Positions 5,545 through 19,508 of a DNA stretch of 46,425 nt are shown piece by piece (the first letter of the stretch is position 1; the number at the start of each line of letters is the position of its first letter). Source of the stretch: Pseudomonadota bacterium (GTDB lineage: Bacteria > Pseudomonadota > Alphaproteobacteria > Rhodospirillales > Magnetospirillaceae); contig JAJZUL010000026.1 of the NCBI GenBank assembly GCA_021848545.1, forward strand, positions 1 to 46,425, given 5' to 3'. Position numbers and translations under genes: made by a program. Under the pieces are notes generated by a model that made no database searches, was not told the origin of the DNA, and saw nothing but the letters and a program-made list of their open reading frames with translations.

Positions 5545-7323
5545 CTATCTCATGTCATCGCGGTCCAGCATGCCGCGGAAGCGGCCGTCGGGGCGATTGG
5601 CCAGATCGTCCCAGCCCCCCTGTTCGACCACGCGGCCCCGTTCCATGACGGCGATGCGGTCGGCGCCGCGCACGGTGGACAGGCGGTGGGCGATGACCAC
5701 CAGGGTCGTGCGCCCCCGCAACCGGGCGATGGCATCCAGGATGCGGCGCTCATTGTCGCCGTCCAGCGCGCTGGTGGCCTCGTCCAGGATCAACAGCGCC
5801 GGGCGGCGCAGCAAGGCCCGCGCCAGGGCCAGACGCTGACGCTCGCCGCCCGACAGGAAATGGCCCCGATCCCCCACCACCGTATCGAGGCCGGCGGGCA
5901 GGCGGCCGACGAAATCCGCCGCCGCCAGATCCAGGGCTTCGCGCATGGCCGCTTCGTCCGCGTCCTCGGCGACCCAGGCGAGGTTGGCGCGGATGGTGTC
6001 GTGAAACAGGAACACGTCCTGGGGCACATAGGCGGTGCGGCCGCGCCAGGCGCGCATCAGCGCCTCGTCCAGAACGACGCCGTCGATGACCACGCGTCCC
6101 CGTTCGGGCATGACGAGACCCGCCAGCAGATCGGCCAGGGTGGTCTTGCCGGCGCCCGACGGCCCCACCACCGCCACGGTTTCGCGGGCGCGAATGTCGA
6201 GATCGATTCCGGCCAGCGTCTCGGCCCCGGCCTCGTCATAGCGGAACCCGACCCCCTCAAGACGCAGGTCGCGGTCGAGAGCCGGCGCGCGCCGGGCCGG
6301 CATGTCCGGTTCCGCCGCCTCGGCGCATTGCGCCAGCAAAGCCATGACCCGTTCATAGGCCGGCAGGGCGTTGGCGAACTGCAACAGGGTCTGATTGACC
6401 TGGGACACCAGCGGCATCATCCGCCCCACCACCACCACCAGCAGCACGGTCTGGGCGGCGGGCAGGGCCGCCACCCGCACCGCCAGCCAGGCCAGAATCC
6501 CCAGCAGCAGGGCGCCGGCGACATCGAAGCCGCCGCGGAACAGGGCCTGATTGCGGATGAAATCCAGACGCTCGGCCCGGCGCCGGTCAACGGTCTCGGT
6601 GAAGGACCGGGCGTGGTGCCCTTCGCGGCCGTAGCTTTTGGCCACCCGCAAACCGGCCAGGAACTCGGCGGCCGATGCCGCCAGGGCCATGTTGGCGTGC
6701 TGGGTCCGGCGCCCGAGATGGCGCGCGCGCCCCGCCGCCCGGAACAGAACCGGCGGCAACAGCACCGCCGCCACCGCCACCGGCACGGCCAGGGTGGGCG
6801 ACACCCAGATCGCCACGGCCAGATGAATCGCGGTCATGGCCAGGGCCAGACACAGACGGGTGAAGGCCAGGGTGGCGGCGCCGACCCGGTCGATTTCGCC
6901 GGTCACCGTTTGCAGCACGTCCGACGCCTTGAGCAGCATCACCACCCGCCACCGGGCCGCGGTCAGGGCGATGAAGGTGCGGTTGCGGAGATCGTCGACG
7001 AATCCCAGCCGCAATTGCGCCATGGCGATGTCGCGCCGTCCCGACAACAGGGCGCGCACCCCCACCAACCCGATGAACAGGGCAAGAACCGCCGGCAGCC
7101 CCGGCTTCACCCCCATCGTCCGGAAGGTGCCCGACAGCCAGTTCAGTTCGCCGCCGTGACCGGCGGCGATGCCGGCCATGGCCAGCAGCGGCACCAGCAT
7201 CAGAAGCGCGAAGCCATCGGTCAGGGCGGCCGCCGCCAACAGGACCGACGCCGACCCGATCCGCCAGGGATTCCATCCCCACAGCGCCCGCCAATAGCGG
7301 CGAAATCCATAATCCGGCGGCAT
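5545..7323 (-). CDS. ABC transporter, fused permease and ATP-binding protein
   Basis: A 592-aa half-transporter that should act as a homodimer in the inner membrane. Residues about 20-310 form the six-helix transmembrane domain. The nucleotide-binding domain covers about 340-585, with Walker A GPSGAGKTT, signature LSGGERQRLALARALL, Walker B LLILDEATSALD and the switch histidine in AHRLST. This order is that of type I exporters of the MsbA/CydC/LapB kind. The substrate is unknown: no partner permease, membrane-fusion protein or peptidase domain is nearby. It is transcribed alone and converges with alaS. Confidence 0.92.
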   Translation of the reverse strand: MPPDYGFRRYWRALWGWNPWRIGSASVLLAAAALTDGFALLMLVPLLAMAGIAAGHGGELNWLSGTFRTMGVKPGLPAVLALFIGLVGVRALLSGRRDIAMAQLRLGFVDDLRNRTFIALTAARWRVVMLLKASDVLQTVTGEIDRVGAATLAFTRLCLALAMTAIHLAVAIWVSPTLAVPVAVAAVLLPPVLFRAAGRARHLGRRTQHANMALAASAAEFLAGLRVAKSYGREGHHARSFTETVDRRRAERLDFIRNQALFRGGFDVAGALLLGILAWLAVRVAALPAAQTVLLVVVVGRMMPLVSQVNQTLLQFANALPAYERVMALLAQCAEAAEPDMPARRAPALDRDLRLEGVGFRYDEAGAETLAGIDLDIRARETVAVVGPSGAGKTTLADLLAGLVMPERGRVVIDGVVLDEALMRAWRGRTAYVPQDVFLFHDTIRANLAWVAEDADEAAMREALDLAAADFVGRLPAGLDTVVGDRGHFLSGGERQRLALARALLRRPALLILDEATSALDGDNERRILDAIARLRGRTTLVVIAHRLSTVRGADRIAVMERGRVVEQGGWDDLANRPDGRFRGMLDRDDMR

Positions 7324-7402
7324 GGTCCTCTTGATAGCCCGTTTGTACCGTCGCTGCGGGCTTGACCGGATTCCGATGAGCGGGACTCACCGGAATTCGG
7401 TA

Positions 7403-8017
7403 TTACGGCCCGGCGATCACATAGCCCTGGGACCGCAGATAGGCGTCGGCGGCGCCCCGGTCGGGCGCGGGAAAGCCGGCCGCCGCCAGATCGCGGATTT
7501 GTTTCGAGGCCAGAAGCTGCTCGACCGGCTTTTTCAGGCATTGGCCGAAAATCCCCGGCAGGGCCGCATCCAGGCCCATCACCGGCGCCGACCGGTAATG
7601 ATTGAAGAAATAGCCGATGGTATCGCCATTGGCCTTGACCGCATCGACGACGCAGGTGACCTGCACCCGGCCCGAGGGATGGCGAATTTTGGCGCTGCCG
7701 GTGATCCGCGTCACCACCTGCGGATCGATGTCGGGGCGGTTGACGGCGACCCCGCGGAAGGCCCGGCCCAGCACGCCCACCGCCGCCCGTTCCAGGGCCG
7801 CGCCCTCGGGCGCGCCGTCACCGGAACTGAGGGGATCATTGTCGACGAGCCTAGCCGCAAGGGTGGGTTCGGACATCTGCACCAGCACCCGGCCCGGCAA
7901 GGGCAGGGCCAGACCCGGCGGCGCCGTCAGCCGGACCTGATCGGGCGCCGGCGGCGAGGCGCACCCCGCCAGCATCGCCACCGCCATCATCGCCGCCATA
8001 CCAATCGATCGCCGCAT
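7403..8017 (-). CDS. Putative lipoprotein, 204 aa
   Basis: The N-terminus MRRSIGMAAMMAVAMLAGCASPP is a clear lipoprotein signal with lipobox LAGC, so the mature protein should be anchored by Cys-19 in the envelope. The rest is soluble and carries no domain I recognise. I chose the ATG at 8017 because an ACGGGGA ribosome site precedes it; the frame is open to 8083, but the added part reads through a terminator hairpin. Downstream on the same strand is the ABC transporter gene 79 bp away, so a shared transcript is possible but unproven. Confidence 0.75.
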   Translation of the reverse strand: MRRSIGMAAMMAVAMLAGCASPPAPDQVRLTAPPGLALPLPGRVLVQMSEPTLAARLVDNDPLSSGDGAPEGAALERAAVGVLGRAFRGVAVNRPDIDPQVVTRITGSAKIRHPSGRVQVTCVVDAVKANGDTIGYFFNHYRSAPVMGLDAALPGIFGQCLKKPVEQLLASKQIRDLAAAGFPAPDRGAADAYLRSQGYVIAGP

Positions 8018-8123: not shown

Positions 8124-8981
8124 TCACGCCGTGACCAGGACCTCGACATAGCGGGGCAAAGCGAAAGCCGCCTTGTGGACGTCCGGCGTGTAATAGCGGG
8201 TCGGTATCGGGGCGGCGGCGAATCTGGCCCGCAGGGTTTCAAGCGTCTCCGCCCGCGGCCGCAACGATGGCGAAGCCCAGCCCAGAGCCATGACGCCGCC
8301 GACATAGGTGGGCACCGCCGCCACGTAAAAACCGACATCGGCGAAATGGACCCGGCGCCGGCGGTAGGTGTCGGTGATCTCGCCGCCCTGGAGAAAGGGC
8401 ACGCCGTTCTGATTGACGAGAATGCCCTCGTCGGTCAGGCGCCGGGCGCAATCGCCGTAGAAATCCTGGGAAAACAGCACCGCTCCGGGACCGATGGGAT
8501 CGGTGGAATCGACGATGATCACGTCGAACCGCTCGGTGCCGTCGCGCATGAAGGCGGCGCCGTCGGCGATGGCCACCTCCAGGCGGGGATCGTCGAAGGC
8601 GCCATCGGACACCATCGGCAGATAACGGCGGCACAGATCGATGACCGAGGCGTCGATTTCGACCAGCACCACCCGTTCGACCTGAGCATGGCGCAGCACC
8701 TCGCGCACCATGCCGCCGTCGCCGCCGCCGACCACGCAGACCGAACGGACGCCGCCATGGGCGTAGATCGGCGTATGGGCCAGCATCTCGTGATAGACGA
8801 ATTCGTCGCCCGCGGTGACCTGGATCACCCCATCCAGGGCGAGAACCCGGCCGAAACCGGGAGTCTCGAAGACCCGGATATCCTGCAGACCGTCCTGGAC
8901 GCGATAAATGTCCCGCGTTACCCGGAACCCCTGACGCCAATCGTCATACAGGCGTTCCGAGTACCAGGATTCATCGCTCAC
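8124..8981 (-). CDS. speE: Spermidine synthase
   Basis: Transfers the aminopropyl group from decarboxylated S-adenosylmethionine to putrescine. The Rossmann-fold motif GGGDGG is at residues 85-90, and DSTDP (158-162) contains the conserved active-site aspartates; the N-terminal beta domain ends in DGVIQVTAGDEFVYHEML. Length 285 aa is normal. Its ATG overlaps the speD stop in an ATGA, so the two are translationally coupled and make spermidine together. Confidence 0.95.
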   Translation of the reverse strand: MSDESWYSERLYDDWRQGFRVTRDIYRVQDGLQDIRVFETPGFGRVLALDGVIQVTAGDEFVYHEMLAHTPIYAHGGVRSVCVVGGGDGGMVREVLRHAQVERVVLVEIDASVIDLCRRYLPMVSDGAFDDPRLEVAIADGAAFMRDGTERFDVIIVDSTDPIGPGAVLFSQDFYGDCARRLTDEGILVNQNGVPFLQGGEITDTYRRRRVHFADVGFYVAAVPTYVGGVMALGWASPSLRPRAETLETLRARFAAAPIPTRYYTPDVHKAAFALPRYVEVLVTA

Positions 8982-9457
8982 GGAACCAATCCCCGCCGAT
9001 TTTCCGCCAAAGTGACGTAATCGGGCCGGAAGGCTTCCTTGAGAATGGGAATCGCCTTATGCGGATCGCAATCCCCGCACATGAACACGTCGAGCGCGGC
9101 AAAGCCGCGTTCCGGCCAGGTGTGGATGGAGATATGGCTTTCCGCCAGGACCAGCACCCCGGAAACGCCGCCATTGGGCTGGAAGTGATGCAGATGACAA
9201 TGCAGGATCGTCGCCCCCGCCTCCACGGCCGAGCGACGCAGCGCCTCCTCGATAGCCGCCAGATCGTCCAGACGCTCGGCGCCCCAAAGGTCGATCAGCA
9301 GATGTGTTCCCGCGAATTTCACGCCATCGCGGCTGACGTAATAATCTTTTTCATTATCGATCACGGGCCAGTTCTGCCCGTCATCGGTGGCGCCTTGGGT
9401 AGCCCTCGGATTGGCTTCCGAGTTCATCCCCAGTTTGGCGGCAAGAGCGTGTGCCAT
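8978..9457 (-). CDS. speD: S-adenosylmethionine decarboxylase proenzyme
   Basis: Makes decarboxylated SAM for SpeE. It is the small prokaryotic pyruvoyl enzyme: self-cleavage is expected between Glu-106 and Ser-107 in LAESHISIHTWPE, with His-112 and Cys-127 (FMCGDC) at the spacings of the active-site His and Cys in the Thermotoga-type enzyme. The ATG at 9457 follows a strong GGAGGGGAGCT ribosome site. This gives an N-terminal extension of about 44 residues before the conserved core. It overlaps speE by four bases. Confidence 0.93.
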   Translation of the reverse strand: MAHALAAKLGMNSEANPRATQGATDDGQNWPVIDNEKDYYVSRDGVKFAGTHLLIDLWGAERLDDLAAIEEALRRSAVEAGATILHCHLHHFQPNGGVSGVLVLAESHISIHTWPERGFAALDVFMCGDCDPHKAIPILKEAFRPDYVTLAENRRGLVP

Positions 9458-9505
9458 AGCTCCCCTCCAAGCCAGCAGATGGACCAGAAGATGAATAAGC
9501 CGCGG

Positions 9506-9534
9506 GTTATCCCCCAAACCGACCGCACTTGCAA
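9506..9534 (-). promoter_or_regulatory. Candidate sigma-70 promoter of speD-speE
   Basis: On the minus strand TTGCAA and GATAAC are separated by 17 bp, each matching four of six consensus bases, about 50 bp upstream of the speD start. The match is moderate and could be chance. Confidence 0.35.
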
Positions 9535-9638
9535 GGAAAAACGGCTCCACCCGTGCCGCAGACGGCCAATGGCGAGGAAACCTGGAGCCTTCGGATTTGA
9601 TGCGACCGGCTTGCAACAAGCGTTAGTGCAGAAAAGCC

Positions 9639-12600
9639 TTAATTCAAGGAGGACAGGCCGCCCTTTTTCACCTTCTTCTCCCACTCGTTCATGAAACTCT
9701 GAAAGCCTTCCACCTGATTGATAATGCCGGGAATGGCCTGATAGTTGATGATCCCCTGCTCGGGCGGGCTGGTCAGCAGATTGAACGCCTTGGCTTCGGG
9801 CGTCTTGGCCATCATCGGCCCGTAAAGACGGCGGATACGGGCCAGAGTGGGTTCGTCCTTGGCCAAGGTCAACGCGGTGGCGAGATCGATCAGATCATGC
9901 CGGGTGGTCTTGTCCGGCACCTTGCCCGGCGAGGGCGGCGGTATTTCGCTTTCGATGGCCAGCGCGTCGTCGGACCAATCCCGGAGCTTCCAGTAGATTT
10001 CGACCCGAAGCCGGTTGGCGGTGGGTGAAAGGTCGTTGATGATCAACGCCAACGCTTCCGACGAACGCCCGAGATCAGCCAACGCCTTGACCCGAAGATA
10101 GCGCCGCTGATTGTACAAGGCCGGCGGCATGTTGGGCACTTCGCTTTCATTGAGCGCATTGAGCGCGCCGCCGGCATCGGCGTTCTCAAGGTCGAGGAAG
10201 GCGAGGCGCGCCCCCACCTTGGCCTTTTCCACGCCGGACAGGCGGTCTTTGACCTGGTGTTGCAGCAATTGCGCCGCCTGACCCAACAGATCGACGGAGG
10301 CCAGCCGGTCGGCCAGCTTGCGGATCATCTCGTCGCCCAGCGGGCCGGGTGGATTCAGTTGCTGGAACTCGTTGAACAAACCGATCGCCACCACCGGCTG
10401 CAACTTGTCGGCGCCGCCCTTGAGGAACAGATCCTCGAAGGTATCGGTCATCAACTTCGACACCGACTTGATATCGGGATCGGAGGCGAAATTATCCACC
10501 AGGAACTGCCACATCTTCAGGGCGTTGCCGTATTGGTGGTCGGCGGCCATCAATTCACCCAGCCGCTTCAGAAGCGTGTATTCGAACTGGCCGCCGCGCC
10601 AAGCGAACCGCAGATGCTGAAGGCGGTTGATGGCCTGGGTGGTGGTGATCTGTTTCAGGCGCAACTGCAATTCGGCCAGCCGCCGGGCGGCGAAGGCGCG
10701 ATCGGGTTGCGACAGGCCGTCCGCCGCCTTGCGGTAGTCGCTTTCCGCCGCGCTGTAATCATGATTGATTTCGGCCGCCCAGCCGGACAGAAAGGTGATC
10801 GCGTCGTCGTCGCGCGGGCTTAAGCCCGCCCCCCTCATGGCGGCGATGATGGCGTCGGCGGCGGTGCCGTCGCCGGCCTTGATCTCGGCCCGCGCGGCGG
10901 TTTTACCCATGGCCATGCGCAGGGGCGCCGTCCACTGGGGCATGGCCGCCGCCGCCGGGGCCAGGGCCGCCGCCTGGGCGGCGGGATCACCCAGGCGCGC
11001 CCGCGCCGCCGCCAGCCACAGCGCCACCTTGGGATCATGGGCCAGGGCCGGTATCGACAGGTCGGCGACCGCCTCCTTGTTGCGGTGCATCAGATAGTCG
11101 GCCACCCCGCGCACGGCGTGGAAATCCGGCAATTCCGCCAGTTTGGGATCGTCGCGCGCCGCCACCGACAGCACGCCCAGGGCTTCGGCCCCCATGCCGT
11201 TGGCGACGGAATGCCGGGCCATTTCCATATGCACGCTTCCCCGGAGCCGGGGAGGCAGGCTGACCGCCTTGTCGAGCAGGCGGCGCTCCACGTCGTAATA
11301 ATGACCGAGCCCGCCCTCTTTCCAGCCGGCCAGATCCAAAGGCGGCCCCGTGGGCACCTCCTCCGCCTTGACCCGCTCCTGCGGCGTCGGCGGGGCGGGA
11401 CCGGCCAGCGGCGGCAGGACCGGCGGCGGGGTATGGGACATTTCCAGCCCGCCCGGCATGGCCACCTGGACGTTGCCGTGGGTGGTATCCAGCCAGACCC
11501 GGTCGGCCCGGGGCACCATCGCCACCCCTTGGGCCGACGGCAGGACCTTGGCCTCGGGCAGATCGAGACCGGGATCGACCCCGTTTCCGGCGTCAAGCAC
11601 CGGCACCACATGCATGACGTCGCCGATCTGGGGGTCCCTTACCAGCAGTTCGCCATGGGCGGGGTCCTTCACCCCGATGATCAGACGGCCGCGATTTTCG
11701 AAATCGAATTGCTTGCGGACCGGCGCCACCATCGCCGGACGCGGGTTCCCCCGCACCAGATCGATCCGCCACCGCGATCCGTCCTTGTCCGCCTTGTAGG
11801 GGACCGGCGCGTACCCCGGCCGGACCAGCAACCGCACGGCGCCGCCATCGCCGGCCGGAACCGTTTGCGCGGCCAGAACCACGTTTTTGCCGTCCCGGAC
11901 CAGGGCGCCGGTATCGACAACGACGGGGTTGTCGAACACCAGCCACACCCAGCCGGCCCGGCGGAACGCCGCCAGGCGCGTGGGCTGGTCGAAGGCGAAG
12001 GGAAGCGAAACCGTCGCCGGCAACGGCGCCGCCGCGGGGGCCGGCTGCGCCGGGAACATCTCCGCCACGGCTTTTGCCGGCGTAACGACCGGCTTCGGCA
12101 CTTCCACCTTCGCCGGCCGAGGCCGCGGCTCGGGGTCAGGCTTGGACGCCGGTTCAGGCGCCGGTTTGGGCTTATGCCCGGATTTAGCCGGCTTGGGTTT
12201 GATGTTTCCGGATTTGGCCGGTTCGGTCCGGGGGACAGCCGCCGCTTTGGCTTTGGGATCGGCCTTGGATTGGGCCGCGCCGTGACGGGGGGGCAGCATG
12301 TCCACCACCAACCGGCTTCCTTCGGCGAAATAGCGGATTCCCGTCCCTTTGGGCACGGCCAGGGCCACCGTCAGATCGCCGGCCTTATCACCGCCGGCCT
12401 TGATCACGCTCACGCCGGAGGGCAGCGACGTCGTCAGCGCCATCGGGCTGATCCGTCCCGGACGACCGAAACGGATGGTGACCCGCTCGGGGTTGACGGC
12501 GATCCGATAGGGCACCCGGCGCGGCCATTGGAACACCAGCCGGCTGTAGCCGCGATGCCGCGCCCCACGCACCACCACCAAAGGCGCCTTGGCCGGCCGT

Positions 12601-13073
12601 TCCGGTTTCGCCGCCGAGTCCCGGACCAGATCGACCACCGTCGAGCGATGAACCAGGAAGTGCCGGATCTTGACGGGAATTTTAAGCGTAAAGGTCAGGG
12701 TATGGCGGTCGCGGCTTTCCTCCACCCCCCTGAGGTAGGGCGACAGCGGCGCCAGCAGCGCCCGCGGATCGCCGGCGACGGGACGGCTGAAATGCAGCAC
12801 CAGCCGGTCGCCGGCGTGATGGACCGACCACAGGACCGGACCCGGCCAGTCGAACACCATGCGCCCGAATGTGGGATGGGTCGCCCCCCGGGGCGTAGCC
12901 GCCGCCGCCGGAACGGCGGCCGAGCCCAACAGAACCAGAAGCGAAATCGTGATCGCCACCAGGGCGGCCCGTCCGGCGCAATTTCGGATCAAGGGCTTTC
13001 GATTCGGGCGATGACATCCCCGGCCCGACCCCCGCTCCCACCATCTGCCGCGTTTCTGCCCCCGGCCAATCAT
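9639..13073 (-). CDS. Large exported TPR-repeat protein
   Basis: A 1144-aa protein with an N-terminal signal or anchor (about residues 33-58, hydrophobic and ending in AAAA), so it should lie in the periplasm. Residues about 60-270 hold two beta-rich segments with repeated patterns (FGRMVFDWPGPV, YSRLVFQWPRRV) resembling AMIN-like domains. A Pro/Lys/Ala-rich linker spans about 270-345 and is followed by a further beta-rich part. From about 600 to the C-terminus it is helical with tetratricopeptide-like repeats. It starts 6 bp after the cheZ stop, without a clear ribosome site, so it is probably translated with cheY-cheZ. A role in motility is suggested only by position. The start is uncertain. 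Confidence 0.8.
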   Translation of the reverse strand: MIGRGQKRGRWWERGSGRGCHRPNRKPLIRNCAGRAALVAITISLLVLLGSAAVPAAAATPRGATHPTFGRMVFDWPGPVLWSVHHAGDRLVLHFSRPVAGDPRALLAPLSPYLRGVEESRDRHTLTFTLKIPVKIRHFLVHRSTVVDLVRDSAAKPERPAKAPLVVVRGARHRGYSRLVFQWPRRVPYRIAVNPERVTIRFGRPGRISPMALTTSLPSGVSVIKAGGDKAGDLTVALAVPKGTGIRYFAEGSRLVVDMLPPRHGAAQSKADPKAKAAAVPRTEPAKSGNIKPKPAKSGHKPKPAPEPASKPDPEPRPRPAKVEVPKPVVTPAKAVAEMFPAQPAPAAAPLPATVSLPFAFDQPTRLAAFRRAGWVWLVFDNPVVVDTGALVRDGKNVVLAAQTVPAGDGGAVRLLVRPGYAPVPYKADKDGSRWRIDLVRGNPRPAMVAPVRKQFDFENRGRLIIGVKDPAHGELLVRDPQIGDVMHVVPVLDAGNGVDPGLDLPEAKVLPSAQGVAMVPRADRVWLDTTHGNVQVAMPGGLEMSHTPPPVLPPLAGPAPPTPQERVKAEEVPTGPPLDLAGWKEGGLGHYYDVERRLLDKAVSLPPRLRGSVHMEMARHSVANGMGAEALGVLSVAARDDPKLAELPDFHAVRGVADYLMHRNKEAVADLSIPALAHDPKVALWLAAARARLGDPAAQAAALAPAAAAMPQWTAPLRMAMGKTAARAEIKAGDGTAADAIIAAMRGAGLSPRDDDAITFLSGWAAEINHDYSAAESDYRKAADGLSQPDRAFAARRLAELQLRLKQITTTQAINRLQHLRFAWRGGQFEYTLLKRLGELMAADHQYGNALKMWQFLVDNFASDPDIKSVSKLMTDTFEDLFLKGGADKLQPVVAIGLFNEFQQLNPPGPLGDEMIRKLADRLASVDLLGQAAQLLQHQVKDRLSGVEKAKVGARLAFLDLENADAGGALNALNESEVPNMPPALYNQRRYLRVKALADLGRSSEALALIINDLSPTANRLRVEIYWKLRDWSDDALAIESEIPPPSPGKVPDKTTRHDLIDLATALTLAKDEPTLARIRRLYGPMMAKTPEAKAFNLLTSPPEQGIINYQAIPGIINQVEGFQSFMNEWEKKVKKGGLSSLN

Positions 13074-13079
13074 CGGATG

Positions 13080-13721
13080 TTAGTCGAAGCTTGCCAGCAA
13101 CCTGTCGATCTCGGCCTGGTTGGTGGCGTTGTCGGGAAGCTGCGGTCCGTTGAGCAGATCCTCGTCGGTCACCGGCCCTTTGGGCTGCGCCTCCGCCGCG
13201 GGCGCCATCTCGGCGCCGAAAACCTGGATCATGGTGTCGATGCGTTCCTCGATGGCCTTCAGCATCCGCACCACCTTGGTAATACGCTGACCGGTCAGAT
13301 CCTGGAAATTGCACGATTCGTAGATGCTGGTGGTGACCTCGGTCAACCGTTCGGCTATCTCCGGCTCCAGCACCGGCGCCAACCCTTCCAGCTTTTCAGC
13401 GGCATCGAGGATGCAGTTGGTCGCCTGTTCGGTGGCGCCGACGATGGCGTCCAGTTCATCGGTCGCGGTAGGGATGAAATCGCTGCGGATTTCGTCGGGC
13501 CGCAACGCGGCGATTTCCGCCCTGGCGGAATGGATGTAATCCGCGAGTGACGACAGCTCGTGATAGAGCTTGAGATCGGCGGCGCTGATATCGCCGCCCA
13601 TCGACCCCAGCAGGGCGTGAACCACATCGCCCAAATCCTCGATCCGGACGGTATCGCCGTACTCCGTGCGGATCGCATCCAGACGCAGAGCGAGATCCTG
13701 ATCCATAGTGGTTCCCGCCAT
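13080..13721 (-). CDS. cheZ: Chemotaxis protein phosphatase CheZ
   Basis: Dephosphorylates CheY-P and so ends the motor signal. The core is a long helical hairpin; NFQDLTGQRI holds the active-site pair Asp-141 and Gln-145, with the same spacing as Asp-143/Gln-147 of E. coli CheZ. The C-terminus (AEIDRLLASFD) is the amphipathic CheY-binding helix. Length 213 aa is close to the enterobacterial protein. It lies directly downstream of cheY, as expected for a pair acting on each other. The annotated start (MAGTTMDQ) has a nearby alternative at MDQDLAL. Confidence 0.9.
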   Translation of the reverse strand: MAGTTMDQDLALRLDAIRTEYGDTVRIEDLGDVVHALLGSMGGDISAADLKLYHELSSLADYIHSARAEIAALRPDEIRSDFIPTATDELDAIVGATEQATNCILDAAEKLEGLAPVLEPEIAERLTEVTTSIYESCNFQDLTGQRITKVVRMLKAIEERIDTMIQVFGAEMAPAAEAQPKGPVTDEDLLNGPQLPDNATNQAEIDRLLASFD

Positions 13722-13739
13722 GTCCGACGCCCTGAACCC

Positions 13740-14126
13740 TTAGAACTCGCCCAGAACGCTGACCATCTTGGTCTTCAACGTTTCGGCGTTGAACGGCTTG
13801 ACGATGTAGTTGGAAACGCCCGCCTCCTTGGCGGCGATGACGTTTTCCGACTTGGATTCCGCGGTCACCATGATGAAGGGCGTGTCCTTCACTTTGGGAT
13901 CGGCCCGCACTTCGCGCAAAAGCTGAAGGCCGGTCATCGGCTCCATGTTCCAGTCCGAGATGATCAACCCGTAACTGCCGACGCGCAGCATCTGCAGCGC
14001 CATGGAACCATCCGTCGCCTCGTCCACATTGTTGAACCCCAACTGCTTGAGGAGGTTCCGCACGATCCTCAGCATCGTCTTGTAATCATCGACGATCAGG
14101 ACGTTGATGTTCTTATCGACAGCCAT
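13740..14126 (-). CDS. cheY: Chemotaxis response regulator CheY
   Basis: A single receiver domain of 128 aa with no output domain. The acidic pair Asp-13/Asp-14, the phosphoacceptor Asp-58 (ISDWNM), Thr-88 and Lys-110 (VKPF) are all present. ISDWNMEPMTGL is the classic CheY wording, so it most likely carries the receptor signal to FliM. A good AAGGGAG ribosome site lies 7 bp before the ATG. cheZ follows after 18 bp and the TPR gene after that. Confidence 0.95.
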   Translation of the reverse strand: MAVDKNINVLIVDDYKTMLRIVRNLLKQLGFNNVDEATDGSMALQMLRVGSYGLIISDWNMEPMTGLQLLREVRADPKVKDTPFIMVTAESKSENVIAAKEAGVSNYIVKPFNAETLKTKMVSVLGEF

Positions 14127-14351
14127 CCATCAGCTCCCTTGAAGCATTAGCGGCCACGCACCCACTGAAATCCGGTCAGCCCGTGAATATCTTACTTAAG
14201 TCTTCCAGTGGAAACGGCGCAAGGAATTTTTCAATCCGACCTGTAAATTCGCACATCTCAGCCGCACCAACGACGGCGCGACAAAATAGGGTGAATGTTC
14301 CGCAAAAATCAACCACCCCTCAATCTTGGCGCCGTCGGCGCCCAAACCGCC

Positions 14352-15119
14352 TTACGGCGTCGAGCCCGGCGCCACCGGCTGGGGCACCGGCAATTGCCGG
14401 CGCTGCGCCAGATCGGCGGTCAAGGTCCTGGCCTTGGCCGGTTTCATCTGAGCCAGAATCGGCGCCACGTTCCGTTCGTTCATGCGCCCGATCACTTCCA
14501 GAAGAACGGGCATGTCGAGTTGGTCGAAAATCCGGGCGGCGTCCTGAGGTTTCATGTTTTCATAGATTTTGACCAGGGATTTGATCCGCTTGTCTTCCTG
14601 GGCATTATACTGCTTCAGCAGACCGTCGATGGACGTCTGGAGATTCTTGAGCTCCGCCACCTTGCGGTCGATCTGCTGGCTGGCGGCCTTGAGCATGATG
14701 GCGCGCTGATCCAGTTCCTTGGCCCGCGCGTCGAGGGCCTTGCGCCGCTGGGACAGTTTCTGAAGAACGTCCATTTCGCTTTGGGACATGCCCGATGGAC
14801 CCACCGGCGGCTGGGCCGGAACGGCCGGCCCGGTACCGGCGACCGGCAAGGCCGCCGCGCCCGACATGGGGGGCTGGGGCGGAATCTGCTGAGCCGCCAC
14901 TTGCGTGCCGATACCGACGCTTCCCGAAACCGCCGACAGGCCCTGCCATATATCATGGATGCGCACGGACAGCATCAGCGCCGCCGCCCCCATCAGAACG
15001 GGCAGCAGGCGCACGAAAGGCGTGCGCGCGGGCTTCTTTTTCGCCTTCGCCTTCATCCCGGAAGTCGCTGCCGGGCGGCTTCGGGGCTTGTCCCCGGCGC
15101 CGGTGGAAGATTGCGCCAT
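14352..15119 (-). CDS. MotE-like flagellar protein with MgtE N-terminal-type domain
   Basis: A 255-aa protein with a basic cytoplasmic N-terminus, one membrane segment (about residues 36-54), a Pro-rich linker and a coiled coil (about 110-175). A C-terminal MgtE-N-like domain (about 178-240) follows, containing KIYENMKPQDAARIFDQLD. This layout is that of MotE, known in rhizobia as a chaperone for the motor protein MotC. Here it follows fliL, fliM and the DUF6468-type gene on the same strand, which supports a motor role. Whether it folds a MotC-like partner is inference, since none is in the window. Confidence 0.8.
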   Translation of the reverse strand: MAQSSTGAGDKPRSRPAATSGMKAKAKKKPARTPFVRLLPVLMGAAALMLSVRIHDIWQGLSAVSGSVGIGTQVAAQQIPPQPPMSGAAALPVAGTGPAVPAQPPVGPSGMSQSEMDVLQKLSQRRKALDARAKELDQRAIMLKAASQQIDRKVAELKNLQTSIDGLLKQYNAQEDKRIKSLVKIYENMKPQDAARIFDQLDMPVLLEVIGRMNERNVAPILAQMKPAKARTLTADLAQRRQLPVPQPVAPGSTP

Positions 15120-15126
15120 GCTCGCC

Positions 15127-15819
15127 TTACCTCATCGATTGCAAGGCACGCAGCAACTCGCGCTCGGCCTCGGACCGCTCATCAACATCGACCTCTTCCG
15201 AGGCGGCGCCCGCCGCCGCGACCGTCGCCCGTTGCGCCGCCTTGCTTCCGGTCGGCTTGGACCCCGCCGGGCGCGCAGGCGCCCGATTCAACGAATCCGC
15301 GGCCTCCGCCGCCGGGCGCGCAGGCGCCCGATTCATAGAATCGGCGGCCTCCGCCGCCGGGCGCGCAGGCGCCCGATTCACAGAATCGGCGGCCTCCGCC
15401 GCCGAGCGCGCAGGCGCTCTATTCAATAAATCGGCGGCCTCCGCCGCCAAGCGCGCAGACGCCGGCCCGTTTTGCGGCCGCACCTCGATCCGGGCCGAAC
15501 GGACGGCGTTTTCCAGCCGGTTGGCCATGGTATCGGCGCGCTCGATCATAAATGCAAGATCGTCGCGCAGGGATTGCGCCTTTTCGACCCGGTCCTGAAG
15601 CGCGCCGCCCGCTTCCTCGGCAGCGCGGCGCAATTTGGGGATGGCGGTCTCGGCGCGCAGGGTCGCCTCGTTGAAACTGACGATGGTCTTGGCCAGATCG
15701 CTGCGGTTGCGTCTGAGCGATCCCAGACGGCTGTTGAGCGCGATGGCGTAGCCGATGGTCGCCACCAGCAGAACGGAAACGACAAGGTCGAGTACCAGTC
15801 GCCAGTCCATCTCCGTCAC
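15127..15819 (-). CDS. DUF6468-type flagellar-cluster protein with tandem repeats
   Basis: A 230-aa protein with an N-terminal membrane segment (about residues 8-28) and a coiled-coil region to about 110. Four near-identical 15-residue repeats (AAEAADSxNRAPARP type, about 120-185) and an acidic C-terminus follow. The N-terminal half matches the unnamed family found beside fliM in many alphaproteobacteria (DUF6468, from memory). It starts at a GTG overlapping the fliM stop (GTGA), so it is coupled to fliM; the ATG at 15810 is an alternative. Function unknown; a motor accessory role is inferred from position. Confidence 0.75.
   Translation of the reverse strand: MTEMDWRLVLDLVVSVLLVATIGYAIALNSRLGSLRRNRSDLAKTIVSFNEATLRAETAIPKLRRAAEEAGGALQDRVEKAQSLRDDLAFMIERADTMANRLENAVRSARIEVRPQNGPASARLAAEAADLLNRAPARSAAEAADSVNRAPARPAAEAADSMNRAPARPAAEAADSLNRAPARPAGSKPTGSKAAQRATVAAAGAASEEVDVDERSEAERELLRALQSMR
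15271..15460. repeat. 45-bp tandem repeat, four units plus a partial
   Basis: Units begin at 15271, 15316, 15361 and 15406, each opening with GCGCGCAGGCGC, with a partial fifth at 15451. The unit length is a multiple of three, so unit gain or loss keeps the host reading frame. Units differ by only a few bases. Confidence 0.95.
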
Positions 15820-16991
15820 CCTTCCCCGATGATCTTTTCGTCGACCCGGATGGCGATGTGCTGTCCCTTGCGCCCCATGCGGCCACGGAACATGTTGATG
15901 TCGCCGCAGCGCATCTCCACCCCGGAATCGGGCAGGGCGTTGAGCATGAACTTCGACCCCACCTTCCAGGACAACACGTCGTTCAGGCTCATCACCTGTT
16001 CATCCAGGACCGCCTTCATCTGCACCTCGGTCAGCCACAATTCCTCGGCCAAGTGGGTCTCCCAGATCGAATCGCGACCGAACTTCTCGCCCATGAACAT
16101 CTGCAGCAGCAACTCGCGCACAGGTTCCAGGGTCGCGTAGGGCAGCAGCAATTCCAGACGGCCGCCGCGATCCTCCATGTCGATCCTGAGCTTGGCGACG
16201 ATGGCGGCGTTGGACGGGCGCGAGATGGTGGCGAAGCGCGGATTGGTCTCCAGACGGTCGAAACGGAAGGTCACCGGCGACAGGGGGTCGAACGCGGCCG
16301 ACAGGTCGGACAGCACCACATGGACCATGCGCTCGACCAGATTGCGTTCGATGGTGGTGTAGGGCCGGCCCTCGATCCGCATCGCCGCGGTGCCGCGCCG
16401 ACCGCCCAGCAACACGTCGACGATGGAATAGATCAGGGACGAATCGACGGTGAGCAGGCCGTAATTGTCCCATTCCTCGGCCTTGAACACGGCGAGCATC
16501 GCCGGCAGCGGGATCGAATTCAGGTAATCGCCGAAGCGAAGCGACAGGATATTGTCCAGCGACACCTCGACATTGTCCGAGGTGAAATTACGCATGGAGG
16601 TGGACATCATCCGCACCAGGCGGTCGAACACCACCTCCAGCATCGGCAGGCGTTCGTACGAAACCAGGGCCGAATTGAGGATCGCCTGGATGCCCGATTT
16701 ATCGTCGCCCAGCGCATGGCCTTCGTCGAAGCCCAGCAGCGAATCGATTTCGTCCTGGTTGAGGACGCGGGCGGCTTCCTTGGGGACGCCGCCGGCTTCG
16801 CCCTCGGCCGCCGCCTCGTCGCCGCCGGCCCCCAGCATGGCCTCCCATTCGGCGGCCATGGCGTCGGCATCTTCGCCGCCGCCGCCGCCGCCGCCGTCAT
16901 CGTCGCCGCCGGCCATGGCGGCCCATTCCCGCATGAGGGCTTCCTCATCCTCATCGGACCGGCCGGCTCCACCTTCGTCCATCGCCGCCAT
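15816..16991 (-). CDS. fliM: Flagellar motor switch protein FliM
   Basis: C-ring component that binds CheY-P and sets rotation direction. The CheY-binding motif LNQDEIDSLLGF is at residues 77-88, not at the extreme N-terminus as in E. coli. It is preceded by about 75 acidic, glycine-rich residues with two similar motifs (REWAAMAGG and AEWEAMLGAGG). The middle domain and C-terminal SpoA domain follow to residue 391. The start at 16991 has a good GGAGGGG ribosome site 8 bp upstream. It lies between fliL and the DUF6468-type gene, overlapping the latter. Confidence 0.95.
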   Translation of the reverse strand: MAAMDEGGAGRSDEDEEALMREWAAMAGGDDDGGGGGGGEDADAMAAEWEAMLGAGGDEAAAEGEAGGVPKEAARVLNQDEIDSLLGFDEGHALGDDKSGIQAILNSALVSYERLPMLEVVFDRLVRMMSTSMRNFTSDNVEVSLDNILSLRFGDYLNSIPLPAMLAVFKAEEWDNYGLLTVDSSLIYSIVDVLLGGRRGTAAMRIEGRPYTTIERNLVERMVHVVLSDLSAAFDPLSPVTFRFDRLETNPRFATISRPSNAAIVAKLRIDMEDRGGRLELLLPYATLEPVRELLLQMFMGEKFGRDSIWETHLAEELWLTEVQMKAVLDEQVMSLNDVLSWKVGSKFMLNALPDSGVEMRCGDINMFRGRMGRKGQHIAIRVDEKIIGEG

Positions 16992-17015
16992 TGCGCAACA
17001 CCCCTCCGCCGTCCG

Positions 17016-17552
17016 CTATTGGATCAGCATTTCCCGGAACAGCACGTCCCTGACCTTCATCGGCGCCACCGCCGCATTGACCCGTTGCAACAATTCCTCC
17101 CGCAACAAATGCATCCCGGCCGCGCCCTCCAGATCCTCGATCCGCAATTCCCGCAGATAAACCTGGAAGGAATCGACGATCAGCGGCATCACCGCCTTGA
17201 CCCGGGCCTCGTCCGCCGGATTGGTCAGCTCCAGGGCGACCTTGATCTTAAGGAAGGATTGGCGCCGCCCGTTGCTTTGCAGATTGACCAGCATGGACGG
17301 CAGATCCATGAAGGTGATGTGAACCGGCTCGGAAGGCGCCTTGGCCTGGGTGGAGGGCGCCTTGCTCGAAAACATGCCCGTGATCCCGGCGAGCGCGCCG
17401 CTGAAATAAAGGCCGGCGCCGCCGCCGATCAACAGCAGAAGCGGCAACGCGATCATCAGGATCTTCTTTATCGGAAACTTGCGATCCGATGATCCCGGCA
17501 GCTCCTCGGAGCCCTCGCCTTCGTCGAAATCCTCTTCAAGATCTTCCGCCAT
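17016..17552 (-). CDS. fliL: Flagellar basal body-associated protein FliL
   Basis: Single-pass inner-membrane protein that supports the stators at the basal body. It has an acidic cytoplasmic N-terminus, one membrane helix (about residues 31-52) and a periplasmic FliL domain to residue 178. That domain ends in the typical MKVRDVLFREMLIQ. I place the start at the ATG at 17552, after AGGTGGGG; a GTG one codon upstream is possible. fliM follows after 24 bp. It is first in the minus-strand motor operon, divergent from flgF. Confidence 0.92.
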   Translation of the reverse strand: MAEDLEEDFDEGEGSEELPGSSDRKFPIKKILMIALPLLLLIGGGAGLYFSGALAGITGMFSSKAPSTQAKAPSEPVHITFMDLPSMLVNLQSNGRRQSFLKIKVALELTNPADEARVKAVMPLIVDSFQVYLRELRIEDLEGAAGMHLLREELLQRVNAAVAPMKVRDVLFREMLIQ

Positions 17553-17731
17553 CACCCCACCTGTCGGTCCAGACCGCTCGTGCTCCGCCCCATCCAGACC
17601 GCGCGTGTCCGTTCGACCGGCACCGGGGCAAGGCTCCCGGTGCGGATCAGGGTCAGTTTGAAGGTAGCCCTCGCGGAGTTAACAGAAGGTTGCGAATACC
17701 ATTGCGGGCCCCTCCGGTAAAGTCCGGCCAT
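17552..17731 (-). CDS. Possible 59-aa ORF overlapping the fliL start
   Basis: An open frame whose last 40 codons have the strong G/C third-position bias of real genes here, ending in a TGA that overlaps the fliL ATG (TGATG), as coupled genes do. The ATG at 17731 has only a weak GGGTGG site. The product is basic, without membrane segments or a family I know. It may be a small operon leader or just biased noncoding sequence. Confidence 0.25.
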   Translation of the reverse strand: MAGLYRRGPQWYSQPSVNSARATFKLTLIRTGSLAPVPVERTRAVWMGRSTSGLDRQVG

Positions 17732-17964
17732 TTGGGCCACCCGCGCCGCCCGGCCGAAAAAACTCGGCAGAAACTGCCCGGCAAGCGCTGCCCGACCATC
17801 AGGCCGCCGTTCGCGCCAACCAACCATCAACACATTGAAAAACAACAAAAATGCGTGGTTTTCCCGGGGCGTTCGCACAAGCTGGCGGGCGTGGCACACC
17901 CCATGCAATACCCAAGGCCGAGCGCTTCGGGCGAACGCCCCCCGGACTTGGGAAACAGAGAACC
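17556..17964. other. Divergent fliL / flgF intergenic region
   Basis: About 409 bp between two divergent flagellar operons. It contains the possible small ORF on the fliL side, an A-rich stretch near 17840-17852 and a sigma-54-type promoter for flgF. I find no matching promoter for fliL. Confidence 0.5.
17892..17907 (+). promoter_or_regulatory. Sigma-54-type promoter upstream of flgF
   Basis: TGGCAC-N5-ATGCA keeps the invariant GG and GC dinucleotides exactly 10 bp apart. The expected transcript start is near 17918, leaving a leader of about 47 nt before the flgF ATG. Sigma-54 control of rod and hook genes is common in flagellate proteobacteria. Confidence 0.55.
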
Positions 17965-18699
17965 ATGGACGATACCACTTACATCGCTCTGTCGCGGCAA
18001 ATGGCCTTGTGGCGGGAAATGTCGGTCGTAGCCAACAACATGGCCAACGCCAACACCACCGCCTACAAAAGCCAGCAGATGATGTTCCGCCAATATCTGA
18101 TGCCGTTCCATGCCACCAACCCGGCCCTGGGCCGTCATCTGGCCTTCGTCCAGGATGTGGGCATTTTGCAGGATCCCGACGAGGGGCCGCTGACCAGCAC
18201 CGGGAACCCGCTGGATTTCGCCATCCATGGCAGCGGTTATTTCCAGGTCCAGACGATGGCCGGCATGCGCTACACCCGCAACGGCCATTTCAGCCTCGAC
18301 CAGAACGGCATCCTGGTGAATGACGAAGGCGACGCGGTGATGAACACCAACAACCAGCCCATCATCATCGCCCCCAACGAGGCCAAGGTCACGGTCGCCT
18401 CCGACGGCACCGTCTCGACCGAGAACGGCATCATCGCCCGCATCAAGGTGGTGCGCTTCCCCAACGCCCAGGACATGCACCGGATCGGCAGTTCCATGTA
18501 CGAGACCACCCAGGCGCCGGAAACGATCCTGCGCCCCGACGTCGTCCAGGGAATGCTTGAACAATCCAACGTCAAGCCGGTGATCGAGATGACCCACCTG
18601 ATCTCGATCATGCGGCAATACCAATCGAACCAGAAAATCATCGACGAGGAAAGCAACCGGCGCGACGAGGCGATCAGGGTGCTGTCGGGCGTCCAATAA
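17965..18699 (+). CDS. flgF: Flagellar basal-body rod protein FlgF
   Basis: Proximal rod subunit exported through the flagellar type III apparatus. The N-terminal rod motif with VANNMANANTTAYKSQQ (about residues 22-38) and the C-terminal EMTHLISIMRQYQSNQKII are diagnostic of the FlgE/F/G family. The central NPLDFAIHGSGYFQVQT is typical of FlgF. The ATG at 17965 follows GGAAACAGAG; it is preferred over upstream starts because the rod motif begins right after it. It is the first gene of flgF-flgG-flgA-flgH; flgG follows after 23 bp. Length 244 aa is normal. Confidence 0.95.
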   Translation: MDDTTYIALSRQMALWREMSVVANNMANANTTAYKSQQMMFRQYLMPFHATNPALGRHLAFVQDVGILQDPDEGPLTSTGNPLDFAIHGSGYFQVQTMAGMRYTRNGHFSLDQNGILVNDEGDAVMNTNNQPIIIAPNEAKVTVASDGTVSTENGIIARIKVVRFPNAQDMHRIGSSMYETTQAPETILRPDVVQGMLEQSNVKPVIEMTHLISIMRQYQSNQKIIDEESNRRDEAIRVLSGVQ

Positions 18700-18722: not shown

Positions 18723-19508
18723 ATGCGCGCTCTCGACATTGCCGCCACCGGCATGCTGGCCCAGCAGACCAACGTGGAAGTGATCTCCAACAACATCGCC
18801 AACATGAACACGACCGCCTATACCAGACGGCGGCCGGAATTCGCCGATCTTCTGTACCAGAACCTGCGCCGGGTCGGATCGACCTCGTCGGATACCGGCA
18901 CCATCGTGCCGACCGGCATCCAGATCGGCCTGGGCGTGAAAACCGCCGCGGTCTATCGCATCACCCAGCAGGGGTCGCTGGTGAACACCAACAACCCGCT
19001 GGATCTCGCCGTCCAGGGCCGCGGCTACTTCAAGATTCTGCTGCCGTCGGGCGATTACGCCTATACCCGGGACGGATCGTTCCAGCTTTCGGCCACCGGC
19101 CAGATCGTCACCCATGACGGCTACGAGGTGATGCCCGGCATCACCGTCAATTCCAACGCCACCGGCATCACCATCAATTCCTCGGGACAGGTGTTGGAAA
19201 GCCAGTCCGGGGTCGTCACGCCGACCAACCTGGGCCAGCTCACCCTGTCCAATTTCGCCAACGAGGCCGGCATGGAAGCCATCGGCAACAATATGTATCT
19301 GCCGACCCCGGCATCGGGCACGCCCCAGGATTCGAACGCGGGCCAACCCGGTTACGGCACCATCCAGCAAGGATTTCTTGAGACTTCCAACGTCAATGTG
19401 GTGTCGGAGATCACCAACCTGATCAGCGCCCAGCGCGCCTATGAGATGAATTCCAAAGTCATCCAGGCCGCCGACGAAATGCTGAGTACCGTCAACCAGA
19501 TGAAGTGA
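18723..19508 (+). CDS. flgG: Flagellar basal-body rod protein FlgG
   Basis: Distal rod subunit. It shows MRALDIAATGMLAQQTNVEVISNNIANMNTT-type N-terminal heptads, NPLDLAVQGRGYFKI and the C-terminal VVSEITNLISAQRAYEMNSKVI, all standard for FlgG. Length 261 aa matches the family. A GACGGAGGAA ribosome site precedes the ATG. Its stop lies just before the flgA start, so the two may be coupled. Confidence 0.97.
   Translation: MRALDIAATGMLAQQTNVEVISNNIANMNTTAYTRRRPEFADLLYQNLRRVGSTSSDTGTIVPTGIQIGLGVKTAAVYRITQQGSLVNTNNPLDLAVQGRGYFKILLPSGDYAYTRDGSFQLSATGQIVTHDGYEVMPGITVNSNATGITINSSGQVLESQSGVVTPTNLGQLTLSNFANEAGMEAIGNNMYLPTPASGTPQDSNAGQPGYGTIQQGFLETSNVNVVSEITNLISAQRAYEMNSKVIQAADEMLSTVNQMK

Follow-up and report, generated by a model that had tools for sequence, protein, structure and literature searches.

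Why does the gene of a very large, apparently exported protein directly follow a pair of cytoplasmic signalling genes, and what function may be assigned to it? The question is raised by a stretch of 46,425 nucleotides (the window, always meant here at its full length) of contig JAJZUL010000026.1 from a Magnetospirillaceae assembly (GCA_021848545.1; Rhodospirillales, Alphaproteobacteria), in which cheY, cheZ and an open reading frame (ORF) of 1144 codons succeed one another on the minus strand. An earlier sequence-only reading had drawn attention to this order and had placed the last two genes within 7 bp of each other; the arrangement is real, with 6 bases between cheZ and the large ORF and 18 between cheY and cheZ. 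In our estimate, with a probability of about 0.83, the large protein is a periplasmic scaffold of the flagellar motor, namely the Rhodospirillales form of the "E-ring spoke" kind known as CC_2058/FssB, MotK and PflA, and the cheY-cheZ pair would stand beside its gene because all of them are motor genes of one conserved cluster.

The large gene and its flagellar cluster

In the window, cheY, cheZ and the large gene close a flagellar cluster with the order fliL-fliM-DUF6468-motE-cheY-cheZ-TPR (Table 1). That the last gene is not a chance ORF follows from its distribution, as it was found in 54 of the 55 genomes of its own family (where contig ends truncate several copies and the only genome without it is one of 0.9 Mb) and, in an even sample of 289 genomes from the class, in 151, some of the matches there being weak or partial. 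The window's own genome gave one match, i.e., no second copy. The family goes with fliM, which was detected in 160 of the 289 class genomes: both genes are present in 143, the large gene only in 8, fliM only in 17 and neither in 121, meaning that fliM accompanies the large gene in 143 of the 151 genomes bearing it (odds ratio 127). Among 299 genomes drawn from the phylum, all strong and long matches to the large protein lay within the class, those outside it being only weak and partial (E above 1e-6), and plasmid records yielded two partial matches (Sphingobium, Erythrobacter) and no named MotK copy.

Gene order is conserved as well. Placement on contigs covered 140 of the 151 genomes with the large gene and 142 of the 160 with fliM (unlisted matches and the last eight for fliM were left out), and both genes could be placed in 130 genomes, on the same contig in 102 and on different contigs in 28. 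In all but two of these 102 (G140 and G186), the two genes share a strand and fliM lies upstream of the large gene, not more than 12 kb away (median gap 3.8 kb). A set of 100 loci, composed of the window and a further 15 and 84 loci, was chosen for the presence of fliM upstream, and its figures for fliM and motE are conditional on that choice: motE and fliM precede the large gene in all 100, DUF6468 in 99 and fliL in 97, the neighbours being labelled with small profiles built on named loci (five other loci, L134–L137 and L152, are outside this count). Among these named loci, which are the best 80 of at least 547 relatives, motE was seen upstream in 63 and fliM in 59 of the latter, with cheY and cheZ lying between motE and the large gene in 47 of the 63; 15 of the 17 loci in which motE was not seen have under 3 kb of upstream sequence, L079 and L121 having more.

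In Alphaproteobacteria the gene thus follows motE, as a rule, within the fliL-fliM cluster, and this linkage to motE/flgY in a flagellar cluster is one of the features of the E-ring spoke kind. The sequence-only reading had considered a motor or polar component; a motor component is most likely what this protein is, given its co-occurrence with fliM and the position of fliM and motE upstream, and the gene is mostly found neither away from motility genes nor in non-flagellate bacteria.

Predicted architecture and mode of action

An AlphaFold2 model computed from 55 aligned sequences (mean predicted local distance difference test score, pLDDT, 84.5; predicted template modelling score, pTM, 0.51, the domains being mostly confident and their relative placement not) predicts a chain of AMIN-like beta domains, a linker, one more beta domain and a TPR solenoid with, by our count on the model, about 14 helical hairpins. 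This agrees with the AMIN-like, proline-rich and TPR segments that had been noticed from the sequence, and both the N-terminal AMIN-like beta-sandwich and the C-terminal TPR superhelix typical of E-ring spokes are recognizable in the model. In Pfam searches, the window protein itself gave a sub-threshold AMIN-like match only (18.5 bits against a cut-off of 27) and no TPR match at E up to 1; in a 24-member alignment that includes it, TPR_2 was found in 18 members and AMIN-like in 15 at E up to 0.1. Neither NCBIfam nor PADLOC returned a match to the protein.

The protein is probably exported by the Sec pathway into the periplasm, judging by a hydrophobic stretch at residues 36–52 followed by AAA-AT, both recognized by inspection. 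The start codon of the ORF is uncertain, being either ATG at 13073 or the in-frame TTG at 12992. The latter directly precedes the hydrophobic stretch, and a start at the former lengthens the protein by 27 residues rich in Arg; the TTG may be the true start.

When the whole model was compared with 350,542 PDB chains using Foldseek, the first match was chain 9hmf_K of the Campylobacter jejuni motor periplasmic scaffold (E 3.6e-8), which is probably PflA, judging by its length of 773 residues. In the VIA search with the whole model, generic TPR structures led and the PilQ structure 3jc8_Qa came fourth (Z 13.8); 9HMF was not among the best 50 rows, which excludes nothing. A PDB profile search was dominated by TPR proteins, BamD among them, and matched PilQ weakly (E 0.0095). 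When the beta part was modelled by itself, one structural match stood out, the PilQ AMIN region (3jc8_Qa), with a Z of 13.2 compared with 4.4 in the next row and a Foldseek E of 2.2e-4; this alignment extends over several domains (226 aligned residues, root-mean-square deviation, rmsd, 23.2), and 3jc8 is an architectural model.

The resemblance to PilQ also invites a different explanation, in which the protein, with its PilQ-type AMIN domains, would be a factor of the cell wall or outer membrane resembling a secretin or an amidase, and would sit in a flagellar cluster by chance. Many of the weak matches outside the class do fall on the AMIN region, in ORFs of about 400–560 aa, but Pfam and NCBIfam revealed neither an amidase nor a secretin domain in the large protein, and a chance neighbour would hardly show such close co-occurrence with fliM, which makes this explanation extremely improbable.

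As a motor spoke, by analogy with the studied systems, the protein would dock with its TPR solenoid on an E-ring built by MotE around the MS-ring and extend outward to the stator ring, its AMIN-like domains may grip peptidoglycan or a partner, and the MotAB stators would thereby be held and engaged. CheY would be an ordinary response regulator and CheZ its phosphatase, both acting in the cytoplasm at the FliM switch, and physical contact of either with the spoke is not implied. Instead of being a structural spoke, the protein could serve a different motor protein of the periplasm as a chaperone or stabilising factor, the role first proposed for MotE with respect to MotC; links between MotE and the stability of MotC or MotK have been reported (PMC10954123, PMC13023049; papers are cited here and below from extracts). 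We regard such a role as very improbable, as the size of the protein, its multiple AMIN-like domains and its similarity to 9HMF fit a structural part better, and MotK is described as stable without MotE (PMC10954123).

Several observations weigh against the assignment as a motor spoke. The alignment with 9hmf_K spans 888 columns, but its TM-score is only 0.15/0.20 and its rmsd 34.5, and TPR folds resemble many unrelated proteins. The window protein is larger and has three AMIN-like domains, compared with 652 aa and one such domain in MotK and with the length of 9hmf_K given above, and the proposed homology to CC_2058, MotK and PflA rests on family, position and fold. With regard to distribution, there are the eight genomes with the TPR gene and no fliM match and the 17 of the opposite kind; in the 28 genomes having the two genes on different contigs, some copies lie well inside their contigs (G116, G330, G163), and in G186 the genes are 1 Mb apart. 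The TPR gene of L079 (Roseospira marina) is preceded by 7.7 kb without any cluster gene and that of L121 by 5.6 kb with cheZ and no motE match, and in G184 (L152) a fliL-fliM-DUF6468-motE cluster was found without a TPR gene within 17 kb. Six of the eight genomes lacking a fliM match have a hook-gene match (G097, G099, G177, G204, G245 and G275), so the absence of fliM from these may be an assembly gap; on one contig of G152, a CheZ match precedes the TPR match by about 1.3 kb, and the TPR match of G269 is weak (E 5.5e-8).

Optional members and neighbours of the cluster

CheZ was found in 55 of the 100 loci and CheY together with CheZ in 40, with neither in 36 and no CheZ in 45. The cheY-cheZ pair is therefore a frequent, optional insertion in the flagellar cluster, and the view that a periplasmic scaffold is here coupled to cytoplasmic signalling genes is not supported. 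The same figures bear on the possibility that the large protein is a polar organiser or a chemotaxis-array anchor, positioning the flagellated pole and coupling it to CheY/CheZ signalling. The cluster is indeed shared with cheZ in over half of the loci, and the DUF6468 gene occupies the place of pflI, for which a role in flagellar positioning is reported (PMC10954123); but the same cluster occurs without these genes in the proportions just given, no cytoplasmic domain is predicted in the AlphaFold2 model of the large protein, and deletion of CC_2058 (FssB) in Caulobacter is reported to leave cells with filaments and non-motile, like a motB mutant, which is a stator-type phenotype (PMC7885107). 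We consider a polar or array function improbable.

The CheZ of the window carries the motif FQDLTGQ, and FQD[I/L/V]TGQ is present in all 52 CheZ ORFs of the named loci; we take the FQD-x-TGQ motif of CheZ to hold its catalytic Asp and Gln. Judging by profile scores, the protein belongs to the PF04344 family and does not appear to be an equivalog of PRK11166, its 51 bits against this NCBIfam model being below the cut-off of 257. Two more CheZ-like genes, both with FQDITGQ, are present in the window's genome (G000:C52:40181-40687 and G000:C21:17177-17698; L002, L003). CheZ had been thought less common in Alphaproteobacteria, which is not borne out by our sample: at E ≤ 0.001 it was matched in 110 of the 289 genomes (107 over the cut-off), and PF04344 in 102 of the 160 fliM-positive ones. 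Alphaproteobacterial CheZ is described as an orphan encoded next to a likewise orphan cheY, and the pairs of Azorhizobium and other members of the class resemble that of the window in this respect (PMC8563088).

A second optional insertion, absent from the window's cluster, consists of genes for MotB-type membrane proteins that separate the spoke gene from motE (or cheZ) in 55 of the 100 loci, two of them in 54. They were detected with the profiles BL1 and BL2, built from nine loci; in two of these BL2 also caught the BL1-type proteins, so members of the pair may carry each other's label. In a Thalassospira example (L088, about 6300–8000), a protein of 241 aa passes MotB_plug and OmpA and another of 294 aa passes MotB_plug alone and narrowly (24.1 bits, cut-off 24). 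In a search of 21 pair-bearing genomes, 20 showed a stronger MotB match outside the pair. The remaining genome, G258 (99% complete), has its sole MotB_plug matches in the pair beside the spoke gene, one member of which may be the stator B subunit; the window's genome has one MotB_plug match, elsewhere. A literature search on MotB-like paralogues returned nothing. It is conceivable, though unlikely, that many alphaproteobacterial motors carry a second stator-like module on the spoke which the window's lineage lacks. The pair could then be a non-torque anchor or an alternative stator held by the spoke against the wall, and the three AMIN-like domains of the window protein might take over the wall grip. 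The pair is the least explained part of the locus.

The other genes of the cluster are listed with the features of the large protein in Table 1. The closest NCBIfam model of cheY, PRK10610, is matched at E 1.8e-47, yet below the cut-off of that model. The motE-like protein combines an N-terminal membrane segment, recognized by inspection, with a C-terminal domain of MgtE_N type that passes Pfam narrowly; its match to the NCBIfam equivalog of spirochaete FlbB (E 8.7e-8, 32.2 bits, cut-off 110) suggests that it is related to FlbB without being its equivalog. Judging by gene position only, the DUF6468 gene may be pflI.

Table 1. Features of the window: the cluster genes, their divergent neighbours and the predicted parts of the large protein.
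Feature	Position	Strand	Evidence
Large TPR spoke-like gene (FssB/MotK/PflA-like)	9639..13073	-	ORF, 1144 codons
Predicted export signal region, residues 32–58	12900..12980	-	hydrophobic stretch by inspection; helix 33–49 in AlphaFold2 model
AMIN-like domain 1, residues ~57–152	12618..12905	-	beta domain in models; PilQ AMIN region 3jc8_Qa, Z 13.2
AMIN-like domain 2, residues ~165–261	12291..12581	-	models; PilQ match; weak Pfam AMIN-like hit 165–193
Pro/Ala/Lys-rich disordered linker, residues 264–348	12030..12284	-	pLDDT under 50
AMIN-like domain 3, residues ~352–442	11748..12020	-	models; inside PilQ alignment range
Fourth beta domain, residues ~450–540, fold not assigned	11454..11726	-	models
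TPR solenoid, residues 581–1104	9762..11333	-	model; TPR families in relatives; TPR structures in fold searches
cheZ	13080..13721	-	PF04344, 63.7 bits, cut-off 30.7; FQDLTGQ motif
cheY	13740..14126	-	PF00072, 100 bits, passes; closest NCBIfam model CheY PRK10610
motE/flgY/flbB-like E-ring gene	14352..15119	-	255 aa; MgtE_N, 26.2 bits, cut-off 25.9
DUF6468 gene in pflI position	15127..15819	-	PF20072, 90.5 bits
fliM	15816..16991	-	TIGR01397 over cut-off
fliL	17016..17555	-	PF03748, 73.8 bits
flgF, divergent neighbour	17851..18699	+	TIGR02490 over cut-off
flgG-like rod gene	18723..19508	+	Flg_bb_rod, LlgE_F_G_D1 and Flg_bbr_C over cut-off

At 225 bases, the gap between motE and cheY (14127–14351) greatly exceeds the others in the cluster and may hold a promoter of its own; a scan for sigma-70-type promoters gave no site there. 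Over 9000–18000, the promoter scan gave 3 sites compared with 1.3 in shuffled sequences and the terminator scan 8 compared with 7.6, both being uninformative on operon limits. Downstream of the spoke gene, 19 bases on and on the same strand, lie genes for spermidine synthase and S-adenosylmethionine decarboxylase (8124–9619), in place of which some relatives have two small rod-gene matches.

Relation to known motor scaffolds

The sequence-only reading had called the protein possibly uncharacterised, which is too strong, as proteins of the same kind have been studied as MotK (PMC10954123), CC_2058/FssB (PMC7885107) and PflA (PMC12222027, PMC11870540). The Rhodospirillales protein itself is not described in the extracts of PMC13023049, PMC10954123, PMC11870540, PMC7885107, PMC11580411, PMC12222027, PMC2829493 and PMC8563088; Alphaproteobacteria were searched with MotC, MotK and CC_2058 in PMC11870540, the data of which may include Rhodospirillales members. 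With the present assignment, the likely motor spoke of Rhodospirillales, the Magnetospirillum-like ones included, joins a kind already described in Caulobacter, Cereibacter and Campylobacter, and an E-ring with spokes is predicted in the flagella of these Rhodospirillales. The gene order may serve as a guide for finding the spoke gene elsewhere in the class, and the optional inserts (cheY-cheZ, the MotB-like pair) show how accessories are added to one conserved motor cluster.

The closest comparison is with Caulobacter, where CC_2058 is reported as a Sec-exported TPR protein with an AMIN-like N-terminus encoded beside motE (PMC7885107, PMC10954123, PMC13023049), the order being CC_2059 (motE)-CC_2058 (PMC13023049, PMC11870540). 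Only G116 and G330 in the class draw exceeded the cut-off of the Caulobacter hook-protein (FlgE) model, as did one of 14 control genomes, taken to be Caulobacter vibrioides. In the Caulobacter-like family marked by this FlgE, the large gene was found in 54 of 60 genomes; among 30 loci with no more than about 1.5 kb of flanking sequence, 19 have it immediately behind motE, an order identical to the published one, which supports assignment to the FssB kind. The ORFs are mostly of about 940–1190 aa, compared with the 1144 codons of the window; the profile match is usually weak over the second AMIN-like region and then extends from about position 250 onwards, with the first AMIN-like region mostly unmatched. 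Unlike in the window, no cheY or cheZ was seen within these short flanks. In G116 (L134) inspection shows fliP-, flgB- and flgC-like ORFs close to the gene, and in G330 (L135) it has two rod-gene matches nearby, in both genomes on a contig other than that of fliM; in these two Caulobacter-like loci the spoke gene stands by flgB/flgC-type rod genes and not after motE, a relocation within the flagellar set.

MotK of the Fla2 system of Cereibacter sphaeroides likewise combines an AMIN-like N-terminus with TPRs in the periplasm, is reported to be needed with MotE for rotation and to bind MotB2 (PMC10954123), and differs, in a comparison by description, in its smaller size, its single AMIN-like domain and the location of its gene after motA. 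MotE has been proposed to form the E-ring, and MotC, MotK and CC_2058 to be the counterparts of PflA (PMC13023049). In Campylobacter jejuni, the scaffold of which is modelled in 9HMF (PMC12222027), PflA consists, as predicted for the window protein, of a beta-sandwich, a linker and a TPR superhelix and is described as the spoke that links FlgY, the E-ring protein, with the stators (PMC12222027, PMC11870540, PMC13023049). Its beta-sandwich has been likened to the AMIN domains of PilQ in 3JC8 (PMC11870540), the very entry matched by the window protein; unlike the latter, PflA has one AMIN-like domain and binds PflB via linker and beta-sandwich. More distant, and likened by description only, is the spirochaete collar of Borrelia, where the periplasmic FlcA and FlcB interact with FlbB, the counterpart of MotE, and FlcB is TPR-rich and PflA-like (PMC13023049).

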